Program-made: the position numbers and the translations under genes | Notes under the pieces: generated by a model | Told to the model about the DNA's origin: nothing | The model's database searches: none | Seen by the model: the letters and a program-made list of their open reading frames with translations, nothing else | Part shown: positions 353 through 47,347 of the stretch, piece after piece | Position numbering within the stretch: the stretch's first letter is position 1 | Layout: the number at the start of each line of letters is the position of its first letter | DNA from: Diplonema papillatum | Lineage: Eukaryota > Euglenozoa > Diplonemea > Diplonemida > Diplonemidae | Assembly (NCBI GenBank): GCA_030068145.1 | Contig: JAPJBO010000014.1 | Coordinates: 558,001-622,000, forward strand | Direction: 5' to 3' | DNA: 64,000 nt

Positions 353-1170
353 TGATCAAGGGCCCCCCACGTTCTACATGTTGAGCAGGGGTTGCCATGT
401 AGCCCGTACCGGTCTAAGCCTTCATTGCAGCTTCCATAAGCACCCCCGTTGGGACGGGTCCGACGGTCCGTTCGTCATCAGCGACATCGGGCGGGAAAAA
501 GTAAATAAAAAGAAAGGGGAAAAATGGGGGTGTGGGTGGAAGTCAAGGGGGGGGGGGGGAGGGACCTACCCACCTCTCTGCCAAATTTGCGGGAAAAAAT
601 TCCGCGATAGTAATAATCCTCTCCCCCTTGGTTATCATGAATACATCATATGAAGAGTAGCGTTGGCACTCTTACTTAGCAACCTGCGAAGAAAGGCACA
701 CCTCGAGCCGCTGTTTCCGAATCGCGCGTGGCCCTTCTGCGTCCCGTGCATGAACAGAACAGGGAACATTCCGCCGCCCGCGCCGCCATTTGAGCTGTTC
801 AGGCAGCTTCCTGCGGTCATCCCCGGCGCTTTAACCTGGCTGCCCCCCTGATCTCCTTTGTTTCGTGAGAGTCGAATGGGCTCCCTTCTTTTTTTTTTTT
901 TTTTTTTCCCCCCCGACGACTAGTGTCAGACTAGCCTACCCGAAGGCAGTTGATTTCTTTAGGCAAGGTTTCTCTACCGGCGGAAGTTGTTTGGGTTAGC
1001 GTTTTCTTTTTTTGCGCCCCTTCTCCTCCCTGTGCGGTTTTTTGTGTTTCCGAGGATGAAAGCCAGTCCGTTTCGTGCTTCCGGCGATTTATCGTATCTC
1101 CGAGTTAGAATTGATCTCGTGCATGAGCCGGGTCGCCCACTCTGTTGCCTTTCCACGGGGCTCCTGGTAG
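353..1170. other. No gene seen; G- and T-tracts
   Basis: Short open frames occur on both strands but none has recognisable protein character. A G-run lies near 549-561 and a 20+ nt T-run followed by C-run near 888-915. I see no RNA gene. Confidence 0.5.
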
Positions 1171-8717: not shown

Positions 8718-11240
8718 TCAGCATAGAAATAAAGTAAGTTGAAGTATGGCGAAAGATAAAGATAAGAACCACACCCTCTCGAAAAAGGCGACGTCGTGGA
8801 GAGTTTTCTCGCGGCCGCTTCCCTCGGTGTCGTCTTCCTCTGGGTAACCGCTTCCCTCCGTCGCTCCTCCTAGATCAGCTCCCGAGTTTTTGATCCCTTC
8901 ACCTCTTCCTGACTCTTGCCCAGTCCTCGAGCTTGCGCTACCCTCCCCGGATTCGTTGTTTTCGCCTTCGCCTTCGGCCTCTCCGAATTCGCCCTCTCCG
9001 AGTTCGTTTCCACTCCCGCCTTCGCCTTCGCCCTCTCCGAGTTCGCCTTCGCCTTCGCCCTCTCCGAGTTCGCCTTCGCCTTCGCCCTCTCCGAGTTCGT
9101 TTTCGCTCCCGAGTTCGCCTTCGCCTTCGCCCTCTCCGAGTTCGTTTCCGCTTCCGCCTTCGCCCTCTCCGAGTTCGTTTCCACTCCCGCCTTCGCCCTC
9201 TCCGAGTTCGTTTCCACTCCCGCCTTCGCCTTCGCCCTCTCCGAGTTCGTTTTCGCTCCCGAGTTCGCCTTCGCCCTCTCCGAGTTCGTTTCCATTTCCG
9301 CCTTCGCCCTCTCCGAGTTCGTTTCCACTCCCGCCTTCGCCTTCGCCCTCTCCGAGCTCGTTTTCGCTCCCGAGTTCGCCTTCGCCTTCGCCCTCTCCGA
9401 GTTCGTTTCCACTCCCGCCTTCGCCTTCGCCCTCTCCGAGTTCGCCTTCGCCCTCTCCGAGTTCGTTTCCGCTTCCGCCTTCGCCCTCTTCGAGTTCGTT
9501 TCCACTCCCGCCTTCGCCTTCGCCCTCTCCGAGTTCGTTTTCGCTTCCGCCTTCGCCCTCTTCGAGTTCGTTTCCACTCCCGAGTTCGCCTTCGCCCTCT
9601 CCGAGTTCGTTTCCGCTCCCGAGTTCGCCTTCGCCTTCGCCCCCTCCGAGTTCGTTTTCGCTCCCGAGTTCGCCTTCGCCTTCGCCCTCTCCGAGTTCGT
9701 TTTCGCTTCCGCCTTCGCCCTCTTCGAGTTCGCTTCTGCTCCCGCTTTGAACTTCACCCTTTGCGAATTCGTTATTGCTCCCGGTTTCACCTTTCTCCGA
9801 TTTGTCGCGCTCCGATCCTTCGTCTCCACCCTTTTCGGATTCGCTTTCTCGTGTCGTCACCCCGGGATTTGACTCAACGGTCGGCGGTGTCACTGCTCCC
9901 GGATTCGACTCAACGGTCGGCGGTGTCTCTACTCCGGGATTCGACTCAACGGTCGGCGGTGTCTCGACTCCCGGATTCGACTCAACGGTCGGCGGTGTCT
10001 CTACTCCGGGATTCGACTCAACGGTCGGCGGTGTCTCTACTCCCGGATTCGACTCAACGGTCGGCGGTGTCTCTACTCCCGGATTCGACTCAACGGTCGG
10101 CGGTGTCTCTACTCCCGGATTCGACTCAACGGTCGGCGGTGTCTCTACTCCGGGATTCGACTCAACGGTCGGCGGTGTCTCTACTCCCGGATTCGACTCA
10201 ACGGTCGGCGGTGTCACTGCCCCCGGATTCGACTCAGTTGCCGGCGGTGTCTCGACTCCCTGATTCGACTCAACGGTCGGCGGTGCCTCGACTCCCGGAT
10301 TCGACTCAACGGTCGGCGGTGTCTCTACACCTGGGTTCGACTCAACGGTCGGCGGTGTCACTGCCCCCGGATTCGACTCAACGGTCGGCGGTGTCTCTAC
10401 ACCTGGATTCGACTCAACGGTCGGCGGTGTCACTGCCCCCGGATTCGACTCAACGGTCGGCGGTGTCTCTACACCTGGATTCGACTCAACGGTCGGCGGT
10501 GTCACTGCCCCCGGATTCGACTCAACGGTCGGCGGTGTCTCTACACCTGGATTCGACTCAACGGTCGGCGGTGTCTCTACACCTGGATTCGACTCAACGG
10601 TCGGCGGTGTCTCTACACCTGGATTCGACTCAACGGTCGGCGGTGTCTCTACACCTGGATTCGACTCAACGGTCGGCGGTGTCTCTACACCTGGATTCGA
10701 CTCAACGGTCGGCGGTGTCACTGCCCCCGGATTCGACTCAACGGTCGGCGGTGTCTCTACACCTGGATTCGACTCAACGGTCGGCGGTGTCACTGCCCCC
10801 GGATTCGACTCAACGGTCGGCGGTGTCTCTACACCTGGATTCGACTCAACGGTCGGCGGTGTCACTGCCCCCGGATTCGACTCAACGGTCGGCGGTGTCA
10901 CTGCCCCTGGATTCGACTCAACGGTCGGCGGTGTCTCGACTCCCGGATTCGACTCAACGGTCGGCGGTGTCTCTACACCTGGATTCGACTCAACGGTCGG
11001 CGGTGTTTCTACTCCCGGATTCGACTCACTCGTAGACGTCGTGGCTACCCCCGGGTTCAACTCACTTGTCGGCGGTGTCTCTACTCCCGGATTCGACTCA
11101 CCGGTCGGCGGTGTGACTGCCCCCGGACTCGACTCCTTTGTCGACATCCTCACGTTCCCCGGGTTCGACTCGCGAAGGTTTTCCTCGCTCAACTCAGCAT
11201 GGCATAGCAGAACAACCGACAGCACTGTCAAAAGGCGCAT
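8718..11240 (-). CDS. Secreted, probably GPI-anchored repeat protein (840 aa)
   Basis: The frame is open further upstream, but the Met at 11240 is chosen because it starts a good signal peptide (MRLLTVLSVVLLCHA). Next comes a long array of 12-residue repeats (TPPTVESNPGVE or TPPTVESNPGAV, roughly 9850-11110) rich in Thr/Pro/Ser. A second low-complexity region of Glu/Gly/Ser/Asn/Leu follows (units like GEGELGSGNEL, roughly 8985-9740). The C-terminus is hydrophobic (WFLSLSFAILQLTLFLC) with no charged tail, as in GPI-anchor signals. Thr/Pro-rich repeats suggest an O-glycosylated surface coat protein; this is inference. The other strand also stays open for up to 700 codons because all repeat lengths are multiples of three; those frames are shadows. 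No introns seen. Confidence 0.75.
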   Translation of the reverse strand: MRLLTVLSVVLLCHAELSEENLRESNPGNVRMSTKESSPGAVTPPTGESNPGVETPPTSELNPGVATTSTSESNPGVETPPTVESNPGVETPPTVESNPGVETPPTVESNPGAVTPPTVESNPGAVTPPTVESNPGVETPPTVESNPGAVTPPTVESNPGVETPPTVESNPGAVTPPTVESNPGVETPPTVESNPGVETPPTVESNPGVETPPTVESNPGVETPPTVESNPGVETPPTVESNPGAVTPPTVESNPGVETPPTVESNPGAVTPPTVESNPGVETPPTVESNPGAVTPPTVESNPGVETPPTVESNPGVEAPPTVESNQGVETPPATESNPGAVTPPTVESNPGVETPPTVESNPGVETPPTVESNPGVETPPTVESNPGVETPPTVESNPGVETPPTVESNPGVETPPTVESNPGVETPPTVESNPGVETPPTVESNPGAVTPPTVESNPGVTTRESESEKGGDEGSERDKSEKGETGSNNEFAKGEVQSGSRSELEEGEGGSENELGEGEGEGELGSENELGGGEGEGELGSGNELGEGEGELGSGNELEEGEGGSENELGEGEGEGGSGNELEEGEGGSGNELGEGEGELGEGEGEGGSGNELGEGEGEGELGSENELGEGEGEGGSGNELGEGEGGNGNELGEGEGELGSENELGEGEGEGGSGNELGEGEGGSGNELGEGEGGSGNELGEGEGEGELGSENELGEGEGEGELGEGEGEGELGEGEGEGGSGNELGEGEFGEAEGEGENNESGEGSASSRTGQESGRGEGIKNSGADLGGATEGSGYPEEDDTEGSGREKTLHDVAFFERVWFLSLSFAILQLTLFLC
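8985..9740. repeat. Coding minisatellite (GCCTTC/GAGTTC words)
   Basis: Irregular tandem array of short words such as TTCGCCCTCTCCGAGTTCG within the surface-protein gene. Repeat-unit variants are shuffled rather than in strict order. Array size is likely variable between alleles. Confidence 0.85.
9850..11110. repeat. 36-bp coding minisatellite, about 35 copies
   Basis: Unit GGATTCGACTCAACGGTCGG plus 16 bases, encoding 12 residues on the minus strand. Two main variants alternate: GTCTCTACACCT/GTCTCTACTCCC against GTCACTGCCCCC. They form a run of alternating pairs around 10330-10560 and a homogeneous run around 10550-10690, which suggests recent unequal exchange. Confidence 0.95.
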
Positions 11241-13491: not shown

Positions 13492-13825
13492 GGTGGATTG
13501 CAAGAACGTGCTTGAAATGGGTATGTGCTCAACACCGCACTGGTTCCGTCTGCGCCGTGTTTCGGTCCTTTAAGCCACGGACACATAAGGCGGACCATCA
13601 TCAGCGCGGAACCTGAGTGTCTGCAGACGGGACAGCGATGTGAGTCTGGTTTGTCAGGCGGCTGTTCGTAGTTCGTCACAGCCAGGACTACCCAGCACAG
13701 GCGAATCAGTCACGGGGAGAAGGCCCCTACAACCGTGTCTGAGCAATCAGTTAAAAAACTCAGGGCACTCGCCCTGATGGTGACTGCGACTCGCTAGGCA
13801 GCACTGACTTGTCTTCTTTTTAGGG
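13492..13825 (+). repeat. Dispersed repeat family R2, long copy
   Basis: About 330 bp, beginning TTGCAAGAACGTGCTTGAAATG, through TGTTTCGGTCCTTTAAGCCACG and CAGCGCGGAACCTGAGTGTC, and ending in an ACTCAGGGCACTCGCCCTGA hairpin. It is nearly identical to 50466-50822. Partial copies occur at 22105, 24140, 28243, 32575, 33237, 40312, 47270 and 50986. Minus-strand frames look conserved between copies only because the copies are young. Likely a non-autonomous retroposon; its ends and mechanism are unresolved. Confidence 0.85.
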
Positions 13826-13950
13826 GGGGGGAAATCTTAGTTTCGTGTTCAGGCGCTTGCCTCTCATGTGCTTGATGCTAGCATCAAGTCTTCTGCGCGG
13901 AACGCAGAGTCTTATTTTCTGTTCTTTTCTTTCTTTCGTTGTCGACAACT
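13826..13950 (+). repeat. Dispersed palindrome element (family R1), long copy
   Basis: Has AAATCTTAGTTTCGTGTTCA, the perfect palindrome TTGATGCTAGCATCAA and a tail ending GTTGTCGACAAC. The same long form occurs inverted at 28937-29080. It directly abuts the R2 copy. Confidence 0.85.
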
Positions 13951-14187
13951 TCTTTTTTCTCCTTCTACTCTCTTTACCATGGTCGTTTTGGACTTTGGGG
14001 GGAAAATGTTTCATGGGTTTGAAGAGCGCGTGGTGCTTGCACCACTGAGGCCAGGTTATTTAACCGCGGATTTAGTGAAGAATTGTTCAGGAAACGGTCG
14101 AAAGGTAACGACCATTTCACTGTCTTCTTTGTTTTGTGATGCGAACATCACGAGGTGCTGTCCGAAGACACCGCCCACGTGAGCACT

Positions 14188-14241
14188 GTTAAGCATTGAG
14201 TTCTTTTAAGTACATGAACCACATGGATTAGCATGCACTGT
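14188..14241. repeat. 54-bp element flanking the LINE (left copy)
   Basis: Starts GTTAAGCATTGAGTTCTTTT and ends TTAGCATGCACTGT. Identical or nearly identical copies lie at 18227-18280 and 19365-19418, on either side of the LINE copies, and as a degenerate triple array at 41319-41462. The roughly 60 bp before it (14120-14187) also resembles 41255-41318, with CCGCCCACGT conserved. Acts either as a long target-site duplication or as a preferred target. Confidence 0.9.
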
Positions 14242-14255
14242 GTCGCCGCTTAAGG

Positions 14256-17200
14256 TTACTTTATGACGTCGTCACCTGTCATTGCGTCGTCAAGGTCGAG
14301 TACTTGTGGCGCCAGGGGCGCTGGGCTTTCTTGCGGTTCTGGAGATTGCGTGGGGGGGCACAGGTGCGGACAGGCTTGCACGTTTTTCACTCTCGAGGGC
14401 ACTGGAGTGCTTGGGGACGTCGGACGTTTCTGGTAGCTGCTTGCTTTAAGGGCCTTCTTCTTTTTTCGTTGCACCCCTGACTCGGGTGTGGTCGCCTTCG
14501 CCTTCTTCCGCTTGCGGCCGGCGATCGGGCTCTCCTTCGGGGTGCCGAGCACCCTCTTCTTCAACGCTGGTCGTTCGCCGGTCCCTGGCGTTGGTGGCGG
14601 CCTCTTGGCCGCCCGTCCGGTCGTCGCCGTCTTCTGCTTCACCACGGCGGGCGGTGCCTGCGCCGCGCGCTTTCCCGCCGGTGTTTCTCGTTGTACGCCC
14701 ACCTGGGTGGGTGAGAGGGGTCTCTTCTTCTTTTTGCTGTGTCCGGGGGTTGCCGGGGCGTTCGGTTCGTTGGGTTGGTGGTGGCCGCGGCGGCAGCACG
14801 CTGCCGGTCTCCTCTGCGCCAACGTAGGGAGCCCCCTGCATTCCTGGCAGGTTCCTCTGCCATGCGTGCGGCAGGCATGATGCCCGCTGCGGCAGCACGC
14901 CGCCGCCGTCTTGCACTCGCCGCATTTCGTCGTGCTGTGCTCCACGCACACCGCGATCGGCTGCCCATCGTCAGCGTGGTGATGGTGCCGACAGCACATC
15001 TCTACCGTGGGCACGTCCCTTCGGACGAGTGCTCGACACGCCTCACACTTCCCCTTGTGGTGGGTCGCGCAGGTGACGAGCGCCTTCTCTACTCCGACAC
15101 CCGGCATATGCACGGGGTCGGGGTGCAGCTGTGGTGGGGCAGGCAGGGCCCACCTCGCCGCTCTCTCGGCCGTCCAGTCCGGGTACGTCGGGAACTGCGT
15201 CCCTACATCGCTTCCCTTCACCTGCTCTTCGAGGATCGTCCCCGTGTGTGCCTCGCGAAAGCGGGGCCTGGGCCGCACCCCCGATATCCCCGTGATGCCC
15301 ATGAACGACAGCGACGTCGTCGGGCATACTCTCTCGCCTCGCTCGCAACTCCCCAGCCCTTGCTGTGTCGCCAGCTTGTCCAACGCGCTGATCATGCAGC
15401 GCAGGACGTTTCCTCGCTCCCTCACCCCCTTCGGTGCATTCTCGTGCAGCGGTATGCTGAGGCCTGAAAAGAGTTCAAAGTCGATGGCAAGCTCTAGCAT
15501 TGACGCCTGCCCGTTCTCGGTCCACTCCATGTCTGACAGCCACGCTACCAACGCATAAAACGTCGGTAGCCCCCAGGCCTTGTTCCGCTCCCACGCCCAT
15601 GCCGGGGCAATCCGCGCAAAGGGGTGGTCGAGCTTCTCGGCAGGCATCGCATCCGCTCTCGACCAGGGGGTCGTGGGGTTCCTGGCTACCCAGCCTCGTG
15701 CTTCGAGCCCTGCCCGCTCCGCAAGGATTTCAGCCATCATCTCCTGGAGCCGCCTCGAGAAGTGGGCATTCTCGGGTACTACCACTCCGTGTTCCAGCGT
15801 GCATCTGGGCCAGTCGGCGCGGTTGGCCGCCATCAGCTCGGCATGTGCCTCTCGTCGCCGTATGTGCGAGTACGCTCCGCAGTCCCAGAATACGTGTTTC
15901 TCGTCCTCGGTGTCGCCGCTTCCACAGTGCTTGCAGCTGGGCGCCTGCGGCTCAGCTCCGGCCTGTCTCATCCGCGACGTGAACTCAGCCGTGTTCACTC
16001 CTCCCGCCAACGCTACACGTATAAGCCTCGCGGTGTGCGCGGGACATTCACGCATCCTCCAGAAGGAGTTCGTCCGCTCCAGGTCGGCTCTCTGTACACC
16101 CTCAAATCCCGGCCGCCTCGCTACCAGACGGGACCACGTCTTCGCCCTCAAATCCGCCCTCACTTCATGCCCCCTCTTCGAGGGTGTCGAGGCTATCGGG
16201 TCAAATATTGCACCATTCCTCAGCGTGCGAGACAGGGGCCCTGGTCCCCATACGTGTCCACACTCCTCCATGCTCTTCATCGCCAGTCCAACTGGCCCCA
16301 GGGGTAGGTCCTCCTCGGCGTACCTTCCCCGGATGCTCTCCATCAGAGGCAGAAGTCGTGGCAACCTCTCGCACGCCGCGTAGAACGCCGTCGTCACCCT
16401 ATATGCTAGGCATGTACTGGGGTCCGTCAGGTGGCCCTTCTCCTGAAAATTTAGGACCATCTCCCTCGCGCGCTTTGGGTTGGACCCACCCCAGATCAGT
16501 CCCATCACCGACGTCGTCAGCCGTTTCATTGCCACCTTCGACACCGGCGCGAAAGAGCAGCCTGACAGCGCCGCCGGCAGCACATTCGACTGTACAATCC
16601 GGACCCGCTTCTCGTACCGGAACGGCGCATGGCGGAGGCCTTCCGCCAGGGCAGCCGCCTTCTCCACCCTCTCCGAGTCGGACCTTTCTGTCCTATTCTT
16701 CGCCGTCGAGACTAGGGCCCCCAGGCACGTGACAGATTTGCCAAACCGCAGCAGCGCATCCACGCTGCGGAGTCTGAGCGTCGACTGATGCCTACGTCTC
16801 GTCGAGAAGGCGACCGTTTTCTGGAGGTTCAGCTCCATTCCGGTGAGCGTGCAGAACTCGTCTACCACGTCCACCCCCTTTTGCAGGGCGGCCTCCGACA
16901 GCCGCGATAGCAGCGTGGCATCGTCCGCGTACGACTTTGGGCTCACCCCCTCCGCTTCTTTCTTGACCGCCTTCATCACTACCGACAGCAGGGCATTGAT
17001 GAGGATGACGGATACAGGGCACCCTTGAAGGATACCATTGGTCACACTAAACTCCCTGCCCACCCCTAGAGGCAGCTTGAAGCGTCTCGCGAGCAGTCTG
17101 TAGATCGCCCTCAGCGGCTTGAGAACCCGATTGTGCAACCCTAAGTCCCCGGCCAGGCGCAGCACTATCTCTCGCGGGACCATGTCGAAACATTTCCGGA

Positions 17201-18218
17201 AGTCCAGCGCCACTCCGTAGAGCGGCTCTCCATCTAGCAAGGCGTCCTCCATCTCGAGCCCTATCTCCATCAGGACGTCCTCGATACGGTGACCCGGTCG
17301 AAAGCCCTTCTGTCCTTCTTCGATCCACTTCTCCTGCCACAGGACTATGTCCGCAAGCCTGCGGCACGCCCATAGGCGGTACACAGCGGACGTGACGGTT
17401 ATTGGCCTCGTGTGCAGCGGGTCTTGGCTCTCATCCTTCGGCACCATCGACACCAGGGCAGTTGTCATGCTCGCCGGCCAAACCCCAGTCACTTCGACCA
17501 GGTTCATGACATCCGCTAGCGCATTCAGCAGGGGAAGCGGCAACTCCCGCAGTTCAGCCATGCGCCAGCCATCCACGCCTGACGCGCTTTTCTTCGGCTT
17601 CTTCCTTAGCAGAGTCCGCAGCTCCTCCCCCGTGATCGTCCCGGGTTCCATCAAGTGTGTGTCGATGTGCTCCTGGAACCGATCCCGAAACGGTCCGTAC
17701 TCCGGCTCTGGCCGGTCCTTGTATTTACGCAGGATAGCGTCCCACGCAGTGTGCAACACCTCGTCCATCTCGTCCACATTTGCAGTCATCTTCGCTCCGG
17801 TGCGCAACACACCCGACGGCTCAGCGCGACCGGCGCAGACGGTCGCTAGACATCGTCTGCTCGCGTCCGCCCTCTCGTTAAGCTTGTCTCGGTACTTCGT
17901 AAACCTGGCCGCAGATCCTTCCCTTCCGAGCCTACTCGTCTCTTCCCGCAACGCTGTGAGCAGCTGCTTCGCCTTCTCATGATCCGGAAACCCCCCTGCG
18001 CCTTGGTCGCCCACCATGCACGCTTGTGCCAGCCGCTTGCAGTTCTGCCAGCAGAGGGACACCTCATGTGGAACAGCTTCCGGCCCGCGACGTTGCGCGA
18101 GGTAGCTGCAGATGCGTTCCATCCGGTGGATGGCCTTTCTAAGCCGTAGCTGCCTGCTGTTCGCTGCCCCCGACCCGTCGGTCGCAGTGCCCGCCGTGAC
18201 ACAGACCCTCCTCGGCAA
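14256..18218 (-). mobile_element. LINE (non-LTR retrotransposon) reverse transcriptase ORF, 1320 residues open
   Basis: The frame opens right after a stop in the flanking 54-bp sequence and its first start-like codon is TTG, so the true 5' end is probably missing. RT motifs are intact: SGVDGW near residue 213, DFRKCFD (339-345), QGCPVS (398-403) and the catalytic YADD (430-433). After the thumb region comes a C-x2-C...H-x4-C knuckle (CKHCGSGDTEDEKHVFWDC). A distinctive Cys/His tail follows at about 1050-1147, then a basic Pro-rich end. No apurinic endonuclease domain is present in what remains. The 3' UTR is only about 20 bp before the 54-bp flank. Strand and lack of LTRs support a LINE of the L1/I/ingi-like broad type; the clade is not assigned. 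Confidence 0.9.
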
Positions 18219-18226
18219 TGTCTTCT

Positions 18227-18280
18227 GTTAAGCATTGAGTTCTTTTAAGTACATGAACCACATGGATTAGCATGCACTGT
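18227..18280. repeat. 54-bp element between the two LINE copies
   Basis: Identical to 14188-14241. It separates the 5' end of the longer LINE copy from the 3' end of the truncated copy. See 14188 for interpretation. Confidence 0.9.
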
Positions 18281-18294
18281 GTCGCCGCTTAAGG

Positions 18295-19341
18295 TTACTT
18301 TATGACGTCGTCACCTGTCATTGCGTCGTCAAGGTCGAGTACTTGTGGCGCCAGGGGCGCTGGGCTTTCTTGCGGTTCTGGAGATTGCGTGGGGGGGCAC
18401 AGGTGCGGACAGGCTTGCACGTTTTTCACTCTCGAGGGCACTGGAGTGCTTGGGGACGTCGGACGTTTCTGGTAGCCGCTTGCTTTAAGGGCCTTCCTCT
18501 TTTTTCGTTGCACCCCTGACTCGGGTGTGGTCGCCTTCGCCTTCTTCCGCTTGCGGCCGGCGATCGGGCTCTCCTTCGGGGTGCCGAGCACCCTCTTCTT
18601 CAACGCTGGTCGTTCGCCGGTCCCTGGCGTTGGTGGCGGCCTCTTGGCCGCCCGTCCGGTCGTCGCCGTCTTCTGCTTCACCACGGCGGGCGGTGCCTGC
18701 GCCGCGCGCTTTCCCGCCGGTGTTTCTCGTTGTACGCCCACCTGGGTGGGTGAGAGGGGTCTCTTCTTCTTTTTGCTGTGTCCGGGGGTTGCCGGGGCGT
18801 TCGGTTCGTTGGGTTGGTGGTGGCCGCGGCGGCAGCACGCTGCCGGTCTCCTCTGCGCCAACGTAGGGAGCCTCCTGCATTCCTGGCAGGTTCCTCTGCC
18901 ATGCGTGCGGCAGGCATGATGCCCGCTGCGGCAGCACGCCGCCGCCGTCTTGCACTCGCCGCATTTCGTCGTGCTGTGCTCCACGCACACCGCGATCGGC
19001 TGCCCATCGTCAGCGTGGTGATGGTGCCGACAGCACATCTCTACCGTGGGCACGTCCCTTCGGACGAGTGCTCGACACGCCTCACACTTCCCCTTGTGGT
19101 GGGTCGCGCAGGTGACGAGCGCTTTCTCTACTCCGACACCCGGCATATGCACGGGGTCGGGGTGCAGCTGTGGTGGGGCAGGCAGGGCCCACCTCGCCGC
19201 TCTCTCGGCCGTCCAGTCCGGGTACGTCGGGCACTGCGTCCCTACATCGCTTCCCTTCACCTGCTCTTCGAGGATCGTCCCCGTGTGTGCCTCGCGAAAG
19301 CGGGGCCTGGGCCGCACCCCCGATATCCCCGTGATGCCCAT
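18295..19341 (-). mobile_element. 5'-truncated LINE copy (348 codons)
   Basis: Nearly identical to the last 348 codons of the LINE ORF ending at 14256; I see only about five or six base differences over more than 1 kb, so the two insertions are recent. It retains only the region from residue 973 onward, with the complete Cys/His array and basic tail. The 5' junction is followed by an A/T-rich 24-bp filler (19342-19364) and the right-hand 54-bp flank. It lacks RT and cannot mobilise itself. Confidence 0.92.
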
Positions 19342-19364
19342 AAGTTTGAAATTAAAATAAGTAT

Positions 19365-19418
19365 GTTAAGCATTGAGTTCTTTTAAGTACATGAACCACA
19401 TGGATTAACATGCACTGT
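19365..19418. repeat. 54-bp element at the outer edge of the LINE pair
   Basis: Same as 14188-14241 except TTAACATGC for TTAGCATGC. It is followed by a partial restart TTAAGCAGCGG. Confidence 0.9.
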
Positions 19419-19454
19419 TAAGCAGCGGTTGCCAGATACTCCCGTAGCACCTAT

Positions 19455-19758
19455 TCACGGGTTTGCAGGGGGGGGGGGGCGTACCGCGTGCGATCCCGAG
19501 AGCGCGTTCCGGGTGTGGCGAACCCCGTAGCCGGGGAGCACCTTCGAGTTGTGCAAGGACGACGACGAGTTCGACCCGGAAACCCCCGAGGCGGATGCGG
19601 CGGCCCCTGCGGCCGCGTCTGACGCCAGCGACGGCACGCGCGGCACGGGCGTCCTGGCGGCGGCAGGCACCGACGGCCGCCGGCCGCGCGGCTGGCCGGG
19701 CTGCGCCGGCTTGCTGCCCGGCGCACCGGCCGCGGTGCTGCTGCACCGCTTCGGCTTC

Positions 19759-19795
<37 letters not shown>

Positions 19796-21971
19796 GGCGC
19801 GCCGCGCGCGACGAATGCGAAGTGCTCCGCACGGCGGACCCACCGACAGTCTGCAGCACCTGCGTCATGCTCGGCTGCCGCATGTACGGCCCGGCGGCGG
19901 CTGATTGGTAGCCTGGTCGGCTGGCGGATACCCCCGCTACCCGTGTGCGCCGGACGTCGACCCGCGGCGAAGGCAGCTTCGCCGCCGCAGCGGCGTCGCC
20001 GAAGTGGCTGTGCCGTACCGTTGACGTCGACAGCTCGCGCTGCAGCTGCCGCTGCCCGAAGAGCAGCGCGCTGGCCTCGTCGCTCTTTCGCTTGAGCCGG
20101 CTCTCGGCCGCGAGCTTGTCACGGGTCAGCTGCGCGACCTCGTCGCTCTTCAGCCGCAGCGCGCGCGACAGCTCGTCCCGCTCGGAGAGGAACGCGCCGG
20201 TCCTCTTCTCCCCGGCCTCGTTCTGCAACGCCGACGCCTGCCGCTTCTCCCGTTCGTCGGCAAGCTCGCTGCGAAGGGTCTCCACCTCACCCTTCAGCAT
20301 CTTCACCAACCCGATGAGCTCCGTGCACACCGCGTCGTCAATCCTCGGAGACCCATTGGTCAACACGGTCCCCGGCGTGCTCCCGACTCCGCCACCCTGC
20401 AGCGGCGTCGGCTGCGGCGGCGCCGCCACGCGGGGCTCGGGCAACGCGCCGGCCGGGCTGCCGCCCGGCTTGTCGCCGGCGAGCCGGCAAAGCGGGTTGC
20501 TGCGCTCCGACGACGCGCCGCCGCCGTCGTTCGACTCGCTGCGGTTGTCGCCGGCGTTCGTGAAGTCGAGCGCCTCGGCCACGTCGCGCGTAGGCGTCAC
20601 GAACGCTGCAGCGCCGGTGCCCCCGGGCTCTTCGCAGCAGCGGCTAGGGGCGTCCCCGAAGCGTACCTCCGGCGCCGCAGCAGCCACGGCGGGCGACGAC
20701 AGTAGCCGGCGGGGGTCCGACTTCGACGGCACTTGAATGACGCCGCCGCCGGCCTCCTCGCCCCCGCCGCCGGAGTGGTCGGCGGACTCGTTCCGCAGCA
20801 CGGCGCCGCCGGCGTCGGACTCCGGGCTGGTGCGCGGGGTTGCACCGGCGGCCGGCGCGGCAGCGGGCTCGAGGGGCTGCTTTGGCTCTGGGCGGGCCGC
20901 CGGCGACGGCTGCTGGAAGGTGCGTGTGAGCGACAGGACCGCCGCGGATGCCTGCAGAGCGGTCGGACTCGGCGAGACGCAGGCAACCAGCTTCGTGCTC
21001 CAAGCGCGGCCTTGGATCGATTCCAGCAGCCAGGCGACCGCCCACGGAAGCGCCCCCGGCTTGGTCAAGTCGACCGAATCATCGCTCGCCGGCGATCCCG
21101 TTGCCAGCACCGATGCACCCCCCCCCAGGGTCTGGGCCAGCTTGCGCAGGGCCTTCCCGGTGAGCGACGTCGCGTGCTGCGCGAGCGGCTCGATCTCCGC
21201 GAACATGCAGATCGGCGAGTTCTGCTTGTTGCTCGCGTCCTTGCGGTCGACCCGCAGCGAGATGACCGTGGTGCCCCGCGGCGTGCTGTTCCGCCGCAGG
21301 TTGTCGAGCGTCCGCGAGACCGACACGACGACCTCCCACAGCGGATTCCACCCCGGAATCGGACCCTCGAACGTTTCTCCAAGGCACTGCGCGTAATCCT
21401 CGCCGTCGCCAAGCAGGTTGATGGCGAGGCCGTTAGGCAGGATCTCCACCGCGCTGACCAGCACGTCGTTCGCGTCGTCGCAGTCTTCGCCGCCGAAGGC
21501 CTCCCACATGTCCTCGACGAAGTGGCTGAGCACCGAGTCACTTGGTGCCCCTTCGCCTTCGGCGTCGCCCGTCAGCAGCCGGGTCTTGCCGCCGCCCTTC
21601 GGCCCGAGCGCCGCGACGCACACGTCCCTTCCCGACAAAAAGTCGCGGAGCGCCGTTTCCGCTATGTTCGCGGCGGCCGCCCCGCCGCCGGCCCCCGCGA
21701 AGCAGTCGGTGAACACGCTGCCGTGCTTGACCGCGGGCCGGTTGCCGGCACGCGCGTCCGCGGCCACGGCGTACCCTTGCCCGGCCCTCCCGCGCAGCAT
21801 CTCGCCGATACTGGCATCATCTGCCGCCCAGGCTTCGACCGCCGGAAGGCTCGGCCCGCCGGCCCGCGCAGCCCATATCGAGCTGTCCAGCGGCAGGCGC
21901 AGCCGCGTGCAGGCGTCGACCTCGTGCTCCGAGAAAGGGCGCACGTGGACATACGTTTCAACCCGACGCAT
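19455..21971 (-). CDS. Kinesin-like protein with degenerate motor domain (838 aa)
   Basis: Begins at an ATG with the kinesin beta1 signature (VHVRPFSEHE, residues 8-17). VFTDCF at 86-91 precedes a P-loop GPKGGGKT at 123-130 (family consensus GQTGSGKT). Near 328-353, LVACVSPSPTALQASAAVLS matches the kinesin alpha5/alpha6 region. The switch regions are eroded: the switch I-like NSTPRG (228-233) lacks the SSRSH pattern, and the position of switch II DLAGSE reads FAEIEP (257-262), so normal ATP hydrolysis is doubtful. A coiled coil spans about 545-660, followed by a Gly-rich, basic, Ser-rich tail. Likely a non-motile or regulatory kinesin relative. It is a single exon as seen. An upstream CTCTACAAAAGCAG could be a splice acceptor in the 5' UTR. 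Confidence 0.8.
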
Positions 21972-22019
21972 CTCGACGGACGACTCCCTGTGCCCCCCTC
22001 CACTGCTTTTGTAGAGTGA

Positions 22020-23205
22020 AAATTCGCTTGAGGATCCGGGGTCTTCTGGTCTTCAGATGACCGTCGTCGAAAGGGTTATTTTATGGTAACTCAAAACTGT
22101 GCACTACCACTGGATCGGTTCTGTACATCGGCCCCTTTTTAAGCCCTGGACGCACATCAGCGCAAAGCCTAGGTGTCTGCAGACAGGGCAAGGACTGAGT
22201 CTGGTCTGTCAGGCGGCTACTCGTAGCTCGTCAGTACCACCACGGGGAGAGGTGGACTTTCCCGAGAGAGTTGGCTTCTCGCCGTGCTTGGTCATGAGAA
22301 ACTACGGCCCCTCGAGTTTGAGTTATCTCGCTCGCTCTTTTTGGAAAGCATGTGGCGACAACTCTGTTGCGGATTTAGCACAGTTGCAGACGGACGGCCG
22401 GGTTTTGCCAGTCAAAGCCACTCCCATACCCACTGATTGCGAATTCCATTCATTCTTCAGCTGTGCAGAGGCTTCTCCCTGCACTCCATGTGACGACTCC
22501 TTGATCGGTTTTCGCGCTGAGTGCTGCAGAGAACGAGCCTTCCCTCCAGACCTCGCTTCCAACGAGCCACAGGGCTGCGGCATGGATGGGCCTCGCGCGC
22601 GCGCAGTACCAGGGCAAAAGAGGCACGAAAAGAGGATTGAGAACAAGCGCGTGTGCCTCAGATATACAAGGAGGTGTGAACGCCGGAACGTCATCGTTCC
22701 CGACTTCAACGACACGCGGCGTGAGACACGGCGGCGAAGCTCTAAAACAAAACTCTCGGTTCTAAAAATTCTAAGGCAAGCGGGAGAGTTGGGGCGGGGA
22801 TTTTCAGGTTCGTTCTGCGAGTGACCCGGGGCGAGGCGGAGGCTGCTTAGGCGGGACCTCGTTAATCGGTTCCAAGCGCTTGGGATAATTGGCGTCAAAA
22901 GCACGCGATGGAAGCGGCGATGCGGGTACTTTCATTGTTTCGCGGGGCGCCTGGCGCCTCAGCTTACGTGGGCCTGCGATGCTGCGGCTGACATGGCACC
23001 GCACTGTACGTCAAGGGAATGGAGACGAGGTGATGCAAGACGAAGAGGAAGTGCGAAGCGACCAGCCCGGACGGACCAGCAAGACGCAGGATCAGGCGAC
23101 CAAGAGAAGGAGGGGGGCGCGACCCAGAGACCCGGGCTAAGTAGCCTGGTACAAGTGTGATGGACCTTTCTTCGGAGGGGCTCACGCACTCAAAGATCGA
23201 CTTAT
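22020..23205. other. No gene seen; partial R2 repeat
   Basis: Contains a partial R2 copy at 22105-22240 (TGGATCGGTTCTGTACATCG through CTGTCAGGCGGCT). Remaining frames, including a basic frame on plus at 22889-23140, show no family features. Confidence 0.4.
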
Positions 23206-25034: not shown

Positions 25035-27657
25035 GCACAACCACCCACTCCCACGACCCCTCCCTTCTTTCAGTTTAGGCGGTAGCTAGTGATAACTAGT
25101 AGTAGAAAGTTTCAACTTGATATGCAGCAACAGGCATAGTATGGTACTCATTTGCATGCAAAAGACTCCCACAAAACGCACAAGAGCATTGTGTTCTGTA
25201 GAGTGCAAGAGCCATCAAGGCAAGCGAGCACTGTTCACGTCGTCCGTCGGGAGGGTCCACGATGAGGATGAGGTCAAACTGGTCATTTCCGAGTCAAGTT
25301 CTGTACCCGCACACTTTCGCGGTGCGGATTTTCCGGGCCGTTATGGCTGTTTCCGGGTCGATGGCGGGGAAGAAGTCAGACATTCTATTTCCTGATTGTG
25401 CGTCGTGTTGTTCGCGGCCTGCCGCGATCGCTTCGATCTTCGTGGCACAACAAGAGCAGTGACGATAGACTGCACGAGTGGCTGCTGACTACCTTCAGGC
25501 CCGCGTCATGTTCTGCTTCGGTCGCTTCTTGCCCCGCATACCGGTATGTTCGAATCTCCGGTTGACGTGGGCTCACTTTCACTCGGGCGTGCCCGAAAGC
25601 TGATGTGACCGACCGGACCGGAACGACAATGCACATGAAAAGGTAAACGCCAACGAAAGGTAAATGCTGCTACCCCTCCCAGACAGGTTTGCACCCCTGG
25701 AAGGACAAACCGAGTCTCCCTGCTGCTGTTGCTCTCAGTATCACTTCCGCCCAGACGACCACAAGCGAATGTGATCCTCGGTTCAGACGTACAGATGTAC
25801 GACCAAACCCCTTTTGTTTGGTAGTTGATACCCGAGTCGATACCTCACGTTTGGTTCAGTGCTCGCCTACTAAACATTCCTCGGAAGTCTAATCGTGTGA
25901 TCTGCGCTTACTAGACGTTCCTCAGTAAGGTCGCGTATCATCCTGTGGCCGTTTGCTCCTTTGATGACGACGCGGGAAGCTTGACAAGCGAGAATGAAAT
26001 GGTCACGAAAACAAAAACGGTTTTCATGATGTACAGACCGGCGAAGGTGACGGGGCCTGCAGATCGATCCGTGTCGGGCCACTCGACCTATTCTCAAACT
26101 TTAAATGGGCGTGAGCTCGGGGTTACTTCATTGAACCCCGACGTAGAATCCTGGTTCTAAGTGGGCCCCTTCTGGTAAGCAGACAGGTGAAGAGAACTGA
26201 ACAAGAACCACAGACTAAACCCCCGTGAAAAGGGGAGGGGAAGAGAGGGCGGGCGGGCGAGTGCAAAACAAAAGAAGGAAAAAAAAAGAGCAGGACAAAG
26301 CCCGCATCGGAGACACCCCCTTCCCCCTCTCCCTCTGTTGAACGATAGGAACAAAACTGAGACAGATGAAGGGACGCTGTTCGTTATTTCTTTCCGGACC
26401 GGACCCACTTGGTATGATCACTTAGCAAATCAAGTTAGAAAAGCATGTGCTTACAAGTTTTGTCGCATGGATACGGCAGCGAGACCACCAGTTATTTCCA
26501 TGACGAGCGGCTTTATGATAAGCGGGTCGTGGGGCCGTGGGTGTAGCAGGCCGCGCTGCGCCCGCGAAATATCTACGGCGGGGGGTGCGTGTTTAGCGTT
26601 TATTATTATTTTTGTGTTCTTTTTTTTTTCAAAGAGTGAAAGCTAGCCCGATACACCAGGGATTACAGTCCCCCCGGGACTTTGATGGCACCCACCCTTT
26701 CCCCCCCTATCTCCAAACCTCGTTCCACTAGCCGCCGTAGCCAAGTATATTCGTTTGTTCTTGTCAGCGGCCTGTGTTCATGTTTCAGCGTGTGCAATGT
26801 GCGATAGCGGCAGTGCGAAACAGAGTATTTTAGGTGTGGATCGGGCCATCATGTCTAGCGCTCGAGCATGGGTTTTACTGTGGTATGCGCACGCTGCGCG
26901 AGGAGTCTCTGCCGATGCTCACCCACGTCGTTCTGCAGCCATTTAGCCATGGATTGTCTCTCTCTTGCGCGGCCCAGAACGCCTTCATGCAAGCTGGTTT
27001 GTTCACGGAAACATCTTTCGCTGCAGCAACACCTCGCAATATTATCTTCACAGGAACATCTTCACCGCAACATCGATAGTCGTACCGTACTCGCGGTGCA
27101 TGCGCACGGTTTTTTTCGCCCGGATGAAGAGAGTATCTGCAAGACACCGTCAACCCCGTTCACAACGCGCGCTTCTTTTCCGGCGTGGCAATAGAACCCA
27201 AGAGTCCTCAGCTCGCTGAAGGATAGAAAGTTAGTTTCGCTTAGTGCCATACCGTTTTCCGTATTTCTCGCTTACATCTTCCGTAGAACGCGGATGGCAC
27301 CAAGAGGGTTAAAACAGGCTAGCGGTGGATTAGACCGGGCAAAAAACTCGGACTGAAGGAACACAAGAAATCTATGATAAGCTGAACAGATCGAAGGATG
27401 TATCGGAATAAGATCGAAAAGAAACAGGAGGAAAAAGAAGAAATGTGAAAACGGGAAAACTAAACAGAAAGGTACAAACTGGTGAGATTTCGGTATCGAA
27501 CGAGACCTGGGGCGTGTCCGTTTGGAACGTGCTCTTTGGTACCGGCTTGCTGCGAGGCACTTGCACACAGAACAGGTGAAGAGGAGCGAGGCACGTCGCA
27601 TCCTTTGTACCGCGAACTACACCACAGGTACCCCCCCCCCCGGGATGCTCATTACTA
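25035..27657. other. No gene seen
   Basis: About 2.6 kb with only short frames. A poly-T stretch followed by AAAGAGTGAAAG lies at 26620-26640. I find no RNA gene or recognisable repeat. Confidence 0.4.
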
Positions 27658-27867: not shown

Positions 27868-28936
27868 ATTACACGCAAGGGAGGGCGCCTAGCGTGCAGA
27901 GAGCAAAGCCTTTTGGGCTGGTTTGCACTCCCCATGTATGTATGTGTAGGGACAAAGTGTAGAAGTACATGTCGCCTAAAGGGGAAAAGCAACGACATAT
28001 GAATCTACGGTGCGAAACCGACCGCGCTGTGATTTTGTGACCAGGTGCAGACGTCCTGCGGAGCCCACGCTTCCGTGGGCTGGGGGGGGGGGGGGGGGGG
28101 GGGTCGCAGAAGCCGGAAAAGCAAAAGCTCGTTATGAAAACTCCTGGGGGGCAATCTTAGATTAATGTTCTGACAGACAGCACTGCCTCTCATGCCTGTC
28201 TTGATGCTGGCACCAAGTCTTCTTCGAAGAAAGGGGTGAGGGGATTGCAAGAACGCTTGGAATGGTCATGCGCGCTCGACATCCTCGCCGTGTTCGGTCC
28301 TTTCAGCCACGCAACGCGGTGCGAGTCGTCTAGCTTTTTGTTTGTGCACTCGTAGGGAAGGGGGCCTGTGATCGAGCACGGACAATCGTGATTGCGCGGA
28401 ACCCCCCCGCCCCCTCTTGGATGGCAGGCGGCTTGCGATTGGCCCAAAAACGAGTGCACGGTACACGCGCCGAGTGCTTTGGCCGACCCCCTCTCTTGAG
28501 AACACCGACGACATCGAGGCGACGTTGCCCGCTGTGCTGCCTTTTTCTCATCTGTGTGTGTATGTGTGGGTGCCTGTGCGTGTGAAATTCAGTTGTGAGT
28601 AACCCCTGTCGCGAAATACAGCCCAGTGCGTGGGAGTGTATGCGAGATTTTTCCTGTATTTTCCCTTTCCCATGGAGCATCCACACGACGCTCTACCTAC
28701 ACGAAGAAGGCGCAGCTTTCCAGAATCGTTAACCCTGTCCTGCGTGAAGCTTTTTGAGGTCAACTCAACCTTCGAAAATGACGACCGCGTCAGCCGGACC
28801 CGTGGGGCAGTCCCGCAGCAGGAGCACGCAAGGGTCTCTCTACCATCGCGTCTTGTGCCTTCCTGGGTTCTCCCGCTTCTTTCCCACTCCACGGTGGCTT
28901 TGGCACCCGTCGTTAAGCTTAGATAACCCCTCCCAG
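27868..28936. other. No gene seen; repeats and G-tract
   Basis: A 23-nt G-run lies at 28081-28103, an R1 copy at 28145-28235 (variant ATGCTGGCACCAAGTCTTCTTCGAAGAA) and an R2 fragment at 28243-28330. No convincing coding frame. Confidence 0.5.
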
Positions 28937-29080
28937 TTGTCGACAACGAAAGAAAGAAAAGAACAGAAAATACGACTCTGCATTCCGCGAAGAAGACTTG
29001 GTGCCAGCCCCCATGCTAGCATCAAACACATGAGAGGCAAGTAGCGCCTGAACACGAAACTAAGATTTTCTCCCCGCTTC
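28937..29080 (-). repeat. R1 long copy, inverted
   Basis: Reverse-strand counterpart of 13826-13950, with GTTGTCGACAAC, the AAAGAAAAGAACAGAAAATA tract, and the ATGCTAGCATCAA core interrupted by a CCCC insertion. Confidence 0.8.
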
Positions 29081-34737: not shown

Positions 34738-34825
34738 TTGGGGGAAAAATCTTAGTGCAGTGCTCAGGTAGAATCTTGTCTCTCATGGACGTTTGATGCT
34801 AGCATCATGTCTTCTTCGCGTGGGG
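34738..34825 (+). repeat. R1 palindrome element
   Basis: GGGGGAAAAATCTTAGTGCA, then the palindrome TTGATGCTAGCATCAT (one mismatch) and GTCTTCTTCGCG. Confidence 0.8.
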
Positions 34826-39994: not shown

Positions 39995-42900
39995 TTAAGG
40001 AGACTGGAACAAGGCGTCAACCGTTAGAGTTCGACTGGGGGACCTTGGCACAAAGTGAGGCTGTGCTGGACGTCCGGGAGGCAAAGATGTCGTGGATAAG
40101 GCGGCAGTGGTTGGCGCCGTGGGAGTTCCTCCTCGGCTCTTCATGTAGCTAAACGCCGAGAAATCGTCTTGTATCCAGTCGTGTACGGTAGTGGCCGGCA
40201 AGGTCAAGAAGACCGCCCGCGGTTCAGGTACCGCCTGGCCTTCAGGAGGAGCGTGACAACGAGCCCGACCTGTTAGAGATCCCGCATTGGCCGAGACAAA
40301 CAGGAGGCATTGCAAGAACGTGCTTGGATTGGATATGTTATCAACAGCCCACTGGTCCCGTCTGCGCCGTGTTTCGGTCCTAAAGCCACGGACACGTAAG
40401 GCGTGTAAAACCCCCGTCATCAGCGCGGAACCTACACAGGGGACCAAGAGCTTGTGTTCGCACCTGCGGGACAGCGACAGCGCACACGAAGTGCAGGACG
40501 TTCCACGACTCCGAAAGCAAGGCAGCGCCTTGCTGGCAATGCTATCTGTGCACTCGACGGTCGGAATGCGCCCCACATGCCACACGTCTGGAAGCAGCAG
40601 CGCGGCCAGAAGTCTTCGCGGTGGAGAAAGATGGTTTCGCGCGCTAGGAGGGTGGCTGAGTGAAATGCTCTGGTCGGCTGAGGACGATGTGCCCACAGCA
40701 GAGGGCGGGCTTGCCGTCAAGTTCTGCGCGACGTGCGTGACGGTCGCAGAGCGCTGCGGAGGGTCGCACGAGGGTGTCCGGACATGCCGGCGTGCAAAGA
40801 CTGCAAGAGGATATCGGACCTGCGCAACCGGCGGCCTGGCCAGTGCTGCAAACGAGGCCACCACCACCGCTACCAGGTATTGCAACGACGCGAGCAACAG
40901 CGCCGCAGAAAGCGCGAGGATTCGCCAGCGCCTGACACACCCGGGGCTGAATCGAAGGAACAGGGGGGACGAGCGCCACTAGGACGCCGCAGCAAAGCAG
41001 CGAGACCGGCAGCGACCACAGAGCAAAGCCCAACCACACCTCGAGAGGAGAACACACGAAAGTGCAGCAAACTCCACCCCGGAACGCGGACGGGCGGGCG
41101 CCGGCCCCGGCCCCGCCAATTACGCCGTCACCAGCAGGGAAGGCATCAGCGCCGGTAAAGCGAAGACGAGAGACGCGACCCCCCAACGGAAGAAGAAGTG
41201 CCCAGCGCCGCCCGTAAAAAAAAAGCGAAGGCAAAGGCCGCAGGGTTAGTTGTCGACAACTTGTTTTGTGTTGATGCGTCATCCAGATGTAAATCTGAAG
41301 CCGCCCACGTCAAATTTTGTTAAGCATTGAGTTCTTTTAAGTACATGAACCACATGGATTAGCATGCACTTGTTAAGCATTGAGTTCGCAAGTACATGAA
41401 CCACTTGGATTAGCATGCACTGATTGTTAAGCATTGAGTTATTTTGAGTACATGAACCATACAGTCCACGAAATCTACCAATTACGCAGTACACACCTGA
41501 TGCGAGCGACTGCAGCAAAAAACGCTTCTGCTGTTCCTTCCTTTCGGCGCGCTTCTGCTCAGCGGCTTGCAACTGGAGTCTCGCTGTGTGGTTTTCGTTA
41601 GTTTCACTAGTGGGCACCAACTTCGGGCTTGCGAAGGAGGCGCACGGCGGGGAGCGAACGACGGAAGCCAACAGACTGGAAGAAGAACCTCTCCATGGCT
41701 CAAACGAGAGACCACGACACCAAAAAGAGCGCACTGTACGTCCTCACAATCTGAGCATTCGCCGCTCAGCCCGCTCAGCCAAGGAGCGGTGGAGGTGAAA
41801 TCTTAGCTCAAATGTTTAAGGCGGTTAGAAAATCGACCCAAGGTATCAGTGGGTAAGCGCATGTCGACCCCGCCACAGACCCAGAATTAATCTGTAGGTG
41901 CACCGTCGGAATAGGGTTGAGAGAGAGAGAGAGACGAGTTAGAGTGCAGGGACCATCTCTCCGAGGAGTATCCGGTCGCCCCACTACTATCCCGTACTAC
42001 TACGGCGGGCGTAAGTCGTTGCGCCGTGGGCGCGGAGCGAGCCGTGGCCCAGTCAAAGATGACTGTTGCACCGATGGTGGCGCAGCCGGGGGCGTTCTGA
42101 CTGGCGGACGAGACCGCCTGGCAGGCGTGTGTTGACACGTTGTTCCGCGGGCTCTCCTCCTTTTGGCAATAGCCCGTCCTATGGCGGCGGCTAGCATCTT
42201 GACGGAGAATCTCAACTCCCACTGAACAAAGGATCTGTAGGTGCCCCGTCGGAATAGAATTGAGAGAGAGAGAGACGAGTTAGAGTGCAGGGACCATCTC
42301 TCCGGGGAGTTTCCGGTCTCCTCACTTCTCTTCGCACTGCTACGGCGGGCGTAAGTCGCTCCGGAGGCGCGCTGCAGGTTGCGGCTCTGCTACAGTGAGT
42401 GGCGGCGCCGGAGTTGGTGCTGCAGCGGGCGCTCTGGCCGGCGGGTGAGAATTGATAAAACTATACACACCTTGCTCCTGCAACGCGACCTTCTGCCTCT
42501 CCTTGAGCTGGAGGGCGAGGAACTGCTCCTCGGTCAGGAGCTGCGGGCCGCGGCCGAGCGGCGGGCTGGGGGCCGCCGCCGCGGCCGGGCTGGGCGGCAG
42601 GTGCGGCTTCGAAGGCGACGGCGGCTGCTGCGGGGGCTGCTGCTGCTGCGGGGGCTGCTGCTGCTGCTGCTGCTGCGGCAGCTGCTGCGGCGAAGCCGGC
42701 GGCGGCGCGGGGCCGCCGGCCGGGGTTTTGGGGAGCGCGTCGAGCTTTTTGAGGGCCTCCTTCTCCTCCCGGTCGGCCCGCTCCTTCGCCCGGAGCTGCT
42801 CCTCGAGGATGCTCTGGCGCAGCTCCTCCTCCTTCGTCTTGCGGTACTCCTTTTCGAACGCGTCGCACAGCTCGCGGAGCTTCCGCCCCACGATGATCTC

Positions 42901-46503: not shown

Positions 46504-47347
46504 GTGTATAATTGAAGAGGGGAACAGGGGTCGCAGGGAGTGTAAGACTCAGCAGGCAGGGTATGAAACCTTGAGGGACTAGTCCTCTTTTTTCTTTTTC
46601 ACCGAGGTGTGTGCACCTCGTTCTTCGTCTCGGGTTGGGGTGGGGGTGGAGACGACCACGTCCGGCGAGGAGTATCTGGCGTGGGGGAGCGGTGGACCAT
46701 TTTGGCAACCGTCGAATCGTTCCAGGTGGTCGGCCATGCACCACCACACAATTCATCGAGAAAGAGCTCTCAATCTGTCAATCCTTGAGATCGTCCTGAC
46801 CTAGTAAAATTCCCCGTGTTGAGTCAAATTAAGCCGCATACTCCACACCTGGTGGTGTCATTCTGTCAATTGCCTTGCGAATGTACTGGCGAACGTCTCG
46901 AGGAGGCAGTCTCGGCGCCGCTCACGGTCCCCGTGGACCAGTCCGGGAGGTGAGCGAAGTCTTGCGACCAGACAACCTCTAGTGTCATGACCAGTCACGA
47001 AACTAGTCATCCTCCTCGGGTCATGCATGGGAGAGAGTGAGAGATAGTTTGATACAGCTTGTGCTGCCTGTGAATTTTGCGCGGGCAGGTTGCCACCTGT
47101 TTTTGCTCGCAGCACAGTTGTTTTGTTGGCGTCCGGCGCTGTTGAGGTCGCCGGCGATGGTGACGGTGTCGTCCATCGGAATGGCGTTATGCAGAGGGTC
47201 CCCGTTGGCCACAGATCCGCTGGATTCGCGCGGAATCCTTAATGCGCATGTTGAAGCTACGGACATACATCCGCGCGGAACCTGAGCTGCGGTAGGACAG
47301 CAGGACAGCGATACCACTCGGGTCTGTAGGAGCGTCAGTGCCAGGTT
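46504..47347. other. No gene seen; R2 fragment
   Basis: R2 fragment at 47270-47330 (CGCGCGGAACCTGAGCT, GGACAGCGATACCACT). Otherwise unremarkable. Confidence 0.4.

Follow-up and report, generated by a model that had tools for sequence, protein, structure and literature searches.

Site-specific long interspersed nuclear elements (LINEs) with an apurinic/apyrimidinic endonuclease (APE), such as R1, TRAS/SART and the Tx1 group, insert into ribosomal DNA, telomeres or small nuclear RNA genes. Target-specific LINEs from ribosomal RNA (rRNA) genes, small nuclear RNA genes and microsatellites are described in PMC4640811, and in stringent-type LINEs, according to PMC4176376, a protein binds a stem-loop in the 3′ tail. 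APE-type LINEs with 2A sequences are named in a title cited in PMC12846837, and an AlkB domain is known in an orchid long terminal repeat (LTR) element (PMC9289625). Here we describe a LINE family of Diplonema papillatum from a 64,000-nucleotide window (the whole stretch analyzed; assembly GCA_030068145.1, contig JAPJBO010000014.1, positions 558,001 to 622,000, forward strand). Searches of the 271-Mb assembly (2910 contigs) make it very probable that this is an APE-type LINE family that uses target-primed reverse transcription to enter a single point of a conserved structured motif, in repeats that are dispersed and partly tandem. The sequence comparisons support site-specific insertion after GTTWAGCA and before GCGGYTGCC, inside a motif common to at least six repeat families (F1 to F6 below; L and C labels denote loci and contigs).

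The window holds two LINE copies in the same orientation, antisense to the numbering and spanning 14196-19341, which are 99.55% identical across 1117 bp (14186-15302 versus 18225-19341, BLAST). A 54-bp unit stands before, between and after them, as a reading of the sequence alone (the sequence-only reading) had correctly described, starting at 14188, 18227 and 19365; the copy at 19364-19418 is 98% identical. The longer LINE copy has an open reverse-transcriptase frame of 1323 aa (minus strand, 14256-18227). The arrangement is that of three insertions into one F1 repeat, namely a solo tail and two LINE copies, one short and one longer but still truncated. From left to right, the F1 left half is followed by GTTAAGCA, the copy 1 tail and body, (T)GTTAAGCA, the copy 2 tail and body, a 23-bp filler, GTTAAGCA, the solo tail, and GTTAAGCAGCGGTTGCC with the F1 right half:

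13997..14187, + strand: left half of the F1 host repeat (left boundary by eye from L026, L028 and L032), with the left part of the structured motif (P1 14154-14159, pseudoknot arm 14170-14174, P3 14181-14188)
14188..14195, + strand: target octamer GTTAAGCA, left copy; the octamer also follows the P3 arm in empty L117, L118 and L121
14196..14239, - strand: 44-nt 3′ tail of LINE copy 1, a tail found at 30/30 sampled LINE-A 3′ ends
14240..18226, - strand: body of LINE copy 1, 5′-truncated (open reverse-transcriptase frame 14256-18227; other copies extend upstream)
18227..18234, + strand: duplicated target GTTAAGCA between the copies (at 18226 other copies cease to match the window)
18235..18278, - strand: 44-nt 3′ tail of LINE copy 2, identical to that of copy 1
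18279..19341, - strand: body of LINE copy 2, strongly 5′-truncated (matching copy 1 at 99.55% in the 1117 bp that they share)
19342..19364, no strand: 23-bp filler at the copy 2 5′ end, neither LINE nor host repeat (from the sequence and BLAST edges)
19365..19372, + strand: duplicated target GTTAAGCA
19373..19416, - strand: solo 44-nt tail, the third insertion, without a LINE body (98% to the tail; host right half directly after)
19417..19470, + strand: GTTAAGCA and right half of the F1 motif (right limit approximate), with GCGGT at 19425-19429, P3 at 19433-19441 and P1 at 19446-19451

The F1 left-half segment 14020-14187 (168 bp) gave 1241 first-look candidates genome-wide, and the 40 that were scored are 91-100% identical. 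The right half is also seen in empty L117, L118, L119 and L121 and in L028 and L032. For the duplicate between the copies, the longer readings TGTTAAGCA or CTGTTAAGCA match the left flank too. GTTWAGCA occurs seven times in the 64 kb on both strands, in all seven cases at a unit or a host site.

The sequence-only reading had regarded the 54-bp unit as an unusually long target-site duplication and as a preferred target. Judged by sequence comparison, the unit is an 8-bp target (GTTAAGCA) plus the LINE's own 44-bp 3′ tail and one or two bases after it. The 48-bp core of the unit has 3413 genome copies at ≤3 mismatches (1514 + 1899; reversed control 0). In 30/30 sampled LINE-A ends the unit sits immediately at the 3′ terminus of the LINE and keeps one orientation; two of these ends carry internal deletions in it (L047, L064). 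This sample comprises 30 of the 40 listed perfect matches (438 candidates) to a 100-bp query without the unit, and includes one window locus (L068); L003 and L007, among eight other LINE loci fetched, were left unplaced by the script and enter no count. With the F1 left flank alone as query, five loci were fetched (L117-L121), in four of which the flank runs straight into GTTAAGCAGCGGTTGCC (GATAAGCAGCGG in L119, which has GATAAGCA in the octamer position after the P3 arm), with no unit; the fifth, L120, carries a solo unit and a duplication of at least 18 bp. Because four of the five fetched F1 loci have the site without the unit, the unit is an insert, and the LINE-end sample together with the empty F1 sites identifies GTTWAGCA as the target and the following 44 bp as the LINE 3′ tail. 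Genome-wide at ≤2 mismatches, F1 alone offers hundreds of landing sites, 331 free of the unit and 221 used, the “empty” count also taking in right-hand long duplications of occupied sites, e.g. L026.

A pre-existing 54-bp target duplicated whole at each LINE insertion would be in keeping with a unit that flanks both LINE copies and occurs without LINEs too. However, the unit is absent from four of the five F1 loci and from the 331 free sites, is carried by all 30 sampled LINE 3′ ends, and is missing from the 5′ side of L115, which ends ..CTCCAGGAG directly against GTTAAGCAGCGG; copies that carry the unit solely at their 3′ side refute such a duplication, to which we give practically no credence. 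Neither role first proposed for the unit therefore survives: the real duplication is short and variable, and the supposed target is an insert. That the unit is part of the LINE and never found empty, which the same reading had named as a refutation of its own view, is correct in its first half, whereas units without a LINE body are common, the tail being inserted alone as well. No Rfam match was found at the unit and no tRNA in the window, and its identification as a known small-RNA gene was rejected.

The triple array of units without these LINEs, reported near 41319, is present, although its units (41318-41379, 41371-41422 and 41425-41459) are imperfect, at about 89-97% identity:

41247..41318, + strand: left half of an F2 host repeat (by-eye match to the F2 flanks of L038, L024 and others)
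41319..41459, + strand: three consecutive solo tails, each after GTTAAGCA, the second and third imperfect and the third cut short

The LINE relic beside this array does have the opposite orientation, but its assignment to the same LINE family was too strong, since the two are linked by no more than a weak match of proteins (31% identity over 113 positions, E 3.6e-5; + strand, window 40736-41044).

The site-specific insertion suggested earlier is borne out by one junction in one orientation, with 28 of the 30 LINE-A junctions following GTTAAGCA or GTTTAGCA. Beyond the tail, the host repeat is found in 27/30 and another LINE body in 3/30. The octamer varies by host family, being mostly GTTA in F1, F2 and F4 and mostly GTTT in F3 and F5; since GTTA/GTTT tracks the host family, the octamer behaves as expected for target DNA. 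Exact-match duplications, defined as the matching stretch ahead of the right-hand junction, measure 4-24 bp (median 9; 10 in L032, 16 in L083, 24 in L026) in 37 loci with a clear right motif, a set that includes the 128-bp LINE insert of L104, and their right edge is constant, after AGCA. One C207 insertion was traced to both ends (L005, L115), with F1 on each side and GTTAAGCA at each end. A fixed junction in a multicopy target, with empty sites, marks a site-specific LINE; target-site duplication and 5′ truncation, at different points in different copies, mark an APE-type LINE. On this reading, an unoccupied counterpart of the window's site would be expected to read CACTGTTAAGCAGCGG, with no unit.

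The host sites share a motif in which sequences differ while two stems and a GCCGC/GCGGC pseudoknot are kept (F1-F6 and window 361). The alignment comprises seven hand-picked rows, six of them occupied sites from which the insert and one duplicate were removed (for F2, L108, the right-copy octamer GTTAAGCA was used, the left copy being GCTAAGCA), and one that is naturally empty:

360..416, + strand: natural unoccupied host motif of F6 type, included in the structure count (L083 is a relative that is occupied)

Pairing is retained in 91.0% of cells versus 74.8% in shuffles (0/500 shuffles as high), falls to 29-52% when the partner is slid, and is accompanied by changes on both sides in 13/21 pairs. 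The number of further pair types, 20 versus 16.9, does not stand out, being reached by 55/500 shuffles. In the pseudoknot, G-C becomes A-U in F1 and C-G in F6, and its second arm has the insertion point at its 5′ edge. Because the rows were chosen by hand and also served to draw the structure, the covariation test describes rather than proves the structure. As to the strand of the host RNA, 7 G-T versus 3 A-C cells on the + strand are too few for a decision. F1 forms head-to-tail monomers with 624-bp spacing in L117 and at listed places on C15, C17 and C13. No hammerhead or other Rfam match was found in the F1 repeats L117, L118, L119 and L121 at E up to 3, and two further Rfam scans gave unrelated chance-level matches only; identification of the motif as twister-sister, twister or HDV-like, suggested by their consensus sequences, had no Rfam support. 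Beside the F1 site lies a further repeat (window 13825-13950) with an inverted partner of 85% identity at 28935-29075 and weaker copies at 34740 and 47350.

The 44-nt tail is common to LINEs with different 3′ untranslated regions (UTRs): LINE-A, LINE-B and others adjoin it, with 307 tail/LINE-A and 1042 tail/LINE-B junctions at ≤3 mismatches (controls 0). A diverged second tail, also 44 nt long, occurs in 639 copies, and in L014 and L107 both types are nested at one target. In L107 the two types alternate (V1-V2-V1-V2-V1, the last cut short) inside an F2 host site; a relic of the second type (90%) lies at window 25185-25232 (+), away from any recognizable host motif; and right of the unit in L025 and L098 another short repeat (GTTAAGCAGTGTGAACTTG..) adjoins the octamer and may be a third tail type. 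Both tails are predicted to fold as a hairpin from the tail 5′ base, with 13 nt free at the 3′ end, and such a hairpin is plausible but not proven.

In target-primed reverse transcription at this site, the endonuclease would nick the + strand after GTTWAGCA, ahead of GCGGYTGCC, and the nicked 3′ end would prime copying of the LINE RNA from the 44-nt 3′ tail, with its predicted hairpin and short single-stranded end. The second strand would be cut at a variable upstream distance, giving a short variable duplication. GTTWAGCA would thereby be left at both ends of the insertion, and later copies could land beside earlier ones. Copying may often end exactly at the tail 5′ boundary, giving 44-bp solo inserts. 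The junctions, the 3′-end tail, the empty sites, the duplications, the fixed orientation and the covarying host motif are read from the sequence itself; the nicking order, the recognition of the hairpin and the reason for stops at the tail boundary are what we infer.

Several observations weigh against this account. Two of the 30 junctions deviate (L054, GCTCAGCA; L064, GTTGAGCA), and exact-match duplications are shorter than 8 bp in 8/37 loci, by decay or ambiguity. Hairpin folding stands out weakly from shuffles (z -1.40 and -1.42; third variant -0.21). Sampling of the LINE favored the best-matching copies of its family, so that old ones are under-represented. AGCA was built into the search pattern of a further sample of 70 units, so that the junction is tested only by GTTW and the 30-locus sample. 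These 70 units come from the 100 exact matches listed first, in contig order, and are not random, with some redundancy (L017/L018 flanks identical; L033/L034 overlapping).

In the 70-unit sample, a LINE adjoins 28 units; in 38 the right half of the host repeat begins within 150 bp, and the remaining 4 show neither arrangement. Among 37 inserts ending within 150 bp, the 5′ end lies -5 to +1 bp from the tail boundary in 19; the others have 3-9 extra bases (10 inserts), 14-16 (3) or at least 31 (5). Since plain truncation would spread the insert ends, the tail boundary is special: either the enzyme halts once past the element that it recognizes, or a separate RNA of the tail exists. Trans-mobilization of a discrete 44-nt RNA, a minimal short interspersed element copied by the LINE enzyme that sometimes jumps between RNAs, is possible, though we lean against it. 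The 19 boundary ends, 77 exact junctions of the tail with GTTAAGCAGCGG, and a diverged tail of equal length with 639 copies all point toward it, as does a single case, L037, in which the tail is fused by eye to a tRNA 3′-half-like stretch and which is consistent with a template jump starting at a free 5′ end. Conversely, an enzyme stop at the edge of its recognition element yields equal ends, and 18 of the 37 inserts end elsewhere. L037, in which the stretch just right of the unit may come from a tRNA for Ala (by eye), is a possible template-jump chimera.

Solo tails might instead be leftovers of recombination between two units that deleted the LINE, like solo LTRs. Nested copies with direct units on their flanks, such as those of the window, would offer the substrate, but a single insertion has one unit and would need an earlier solo on its right, and the solos have their own variable duplications; we regard this origin as very unlikely. 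Under either explanation of the boundary stops given above, exact tail-only inserts form a countable record, of reverse-transcription stops after priming or of a minimal trans-mobilized RNA. A bolder combination, which we consider rather unlikely, is that the 44-nt tail is mobile alone, among the smallest such elements known and trans-copied in large numbers as a discrete RNA, and that the LINE has specialized on a structured RNA that is widespread, undescribed and possibly self-cleaving, whose pseudoknotted core it targets in retrozyme-like repeats of at least six families. One retroelement would then use another, structured one as its landing pad.

Judged by their matches, longer copies of the APE-type LINE encode an AlkB-like domain, a 2A motif, an APE-type endonuclease and a reverse transcriptase. 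Upstream of the copy 1 truncation, five of six other loci continue over the whole 420 bp fetched, and the sixth, L110, stops about a dozen bases beyond it. The window copy matches RVT_1 in Pfam (E 1.1e-19), as expected of a LINE reverse transcriptase; its nearest solved relative is L1 ORF2p (E 8.8e-21), with the R2 protein at 4.1e-15. Upstream of the reverse transcriptase, the C207 frame has an AlkB-like stretch, then GDVEQNPGP (a 2A motif, by eye), then an endonuclease stretch, and its 5′ end lies at ..CTCCAGGAG against GTTAAGCAGCGG in an F1 repeat. L116 is identical to the C207 copy over 1305 bp and extends further upstream. The frame with AlkB-like 2OG-Fe(II) oxygenase, 2A and APE-type endonuclease occupies L116:2-1636 and L115:2-1330 (minus strand). 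In L116 it matches 2OG-FeII_Oxy_2 (E 1.5e-13; solved relative ALKBH8, E 1.4e-6) and Exo_endo_phos (E 2.4e-5; 24.7 bits versus a cut-off of 24.5), which places an APE/EEP-type endonuclease upstream of the reverse transcriptase in L116; it is absent from the truncated window copies. A second L116 open frame upstream (minus strand, 1637-2500, 287 aa) has no Pfam match.

Elsewhere in the window, an 865-aa open frame (19455-22052, minus strand) just right of the invaded F1 repeat has a sub-threshold kinesin motor match (E 0.0019), and a eukaryotic small-subunit rRNA fragment lies at 46692-46828 (minus strand; Rfam RF01960, 57 bits). Large tandem arrays occupy 57538-58772 (19-bp unit x65), 9865-11135 (36-bp unit x35) and 61452-63883 (258-bp units in three blocks).

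Among the titles and abstracts listed, no LINE with an AlkB-like domain turned up, and the available text of an Ectocarpus transposon paper (PMC12477816) lacks the term AlkB and has nothing on a GTTWAGCA target. An AlkB-like domain in a LINE would extend the case of the orchid LTR element (PMC9289625). With the 2A-bearing APE-type LINEs of the title in PMC12846837, the present LINE appears to share GDVEQNPGP upstream of the endonuclease (by eye), but it has an AlkB-like domain before the 2A. It resembles the stringent-type LINEs of PMC4176376 in a short conserved 3′ tail with a predicted hairpin, common to copies with different 3′ UTRs; in contrast, tail-only 44-nt inserts are abundant here, and tail recognition is putative, with weakly supported folding. 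The F1 host repeat is like the non-LTR retrozymes (PMC7229834) in its short head-to-tail monomers (624 bp) with one structured motif each, although F1 has no hammerhead or other Rfam match and its monomer is larger. The features tested support a mode of action like that of site-specific APE-type LINEs, here with a short 3′ tail, and the element shares with R1, TRAS/SART and the Tx1 group an APE-type endonuclease with reverse transcriptase, a single junction in a multicopy sequence, a short target duplication and 5′ truncation. It differs from them in its AlkB-like domain, its 2A motif and a target that is a covarying structured motif in several repeat families rather than ribosomal DNA, a telomere or a small nuclear RNA gene. 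Its unusual features are a structural motif as target in several repeat families, the abundance of exact tail-only inserts and the order AlkB-like, 2A, APE.

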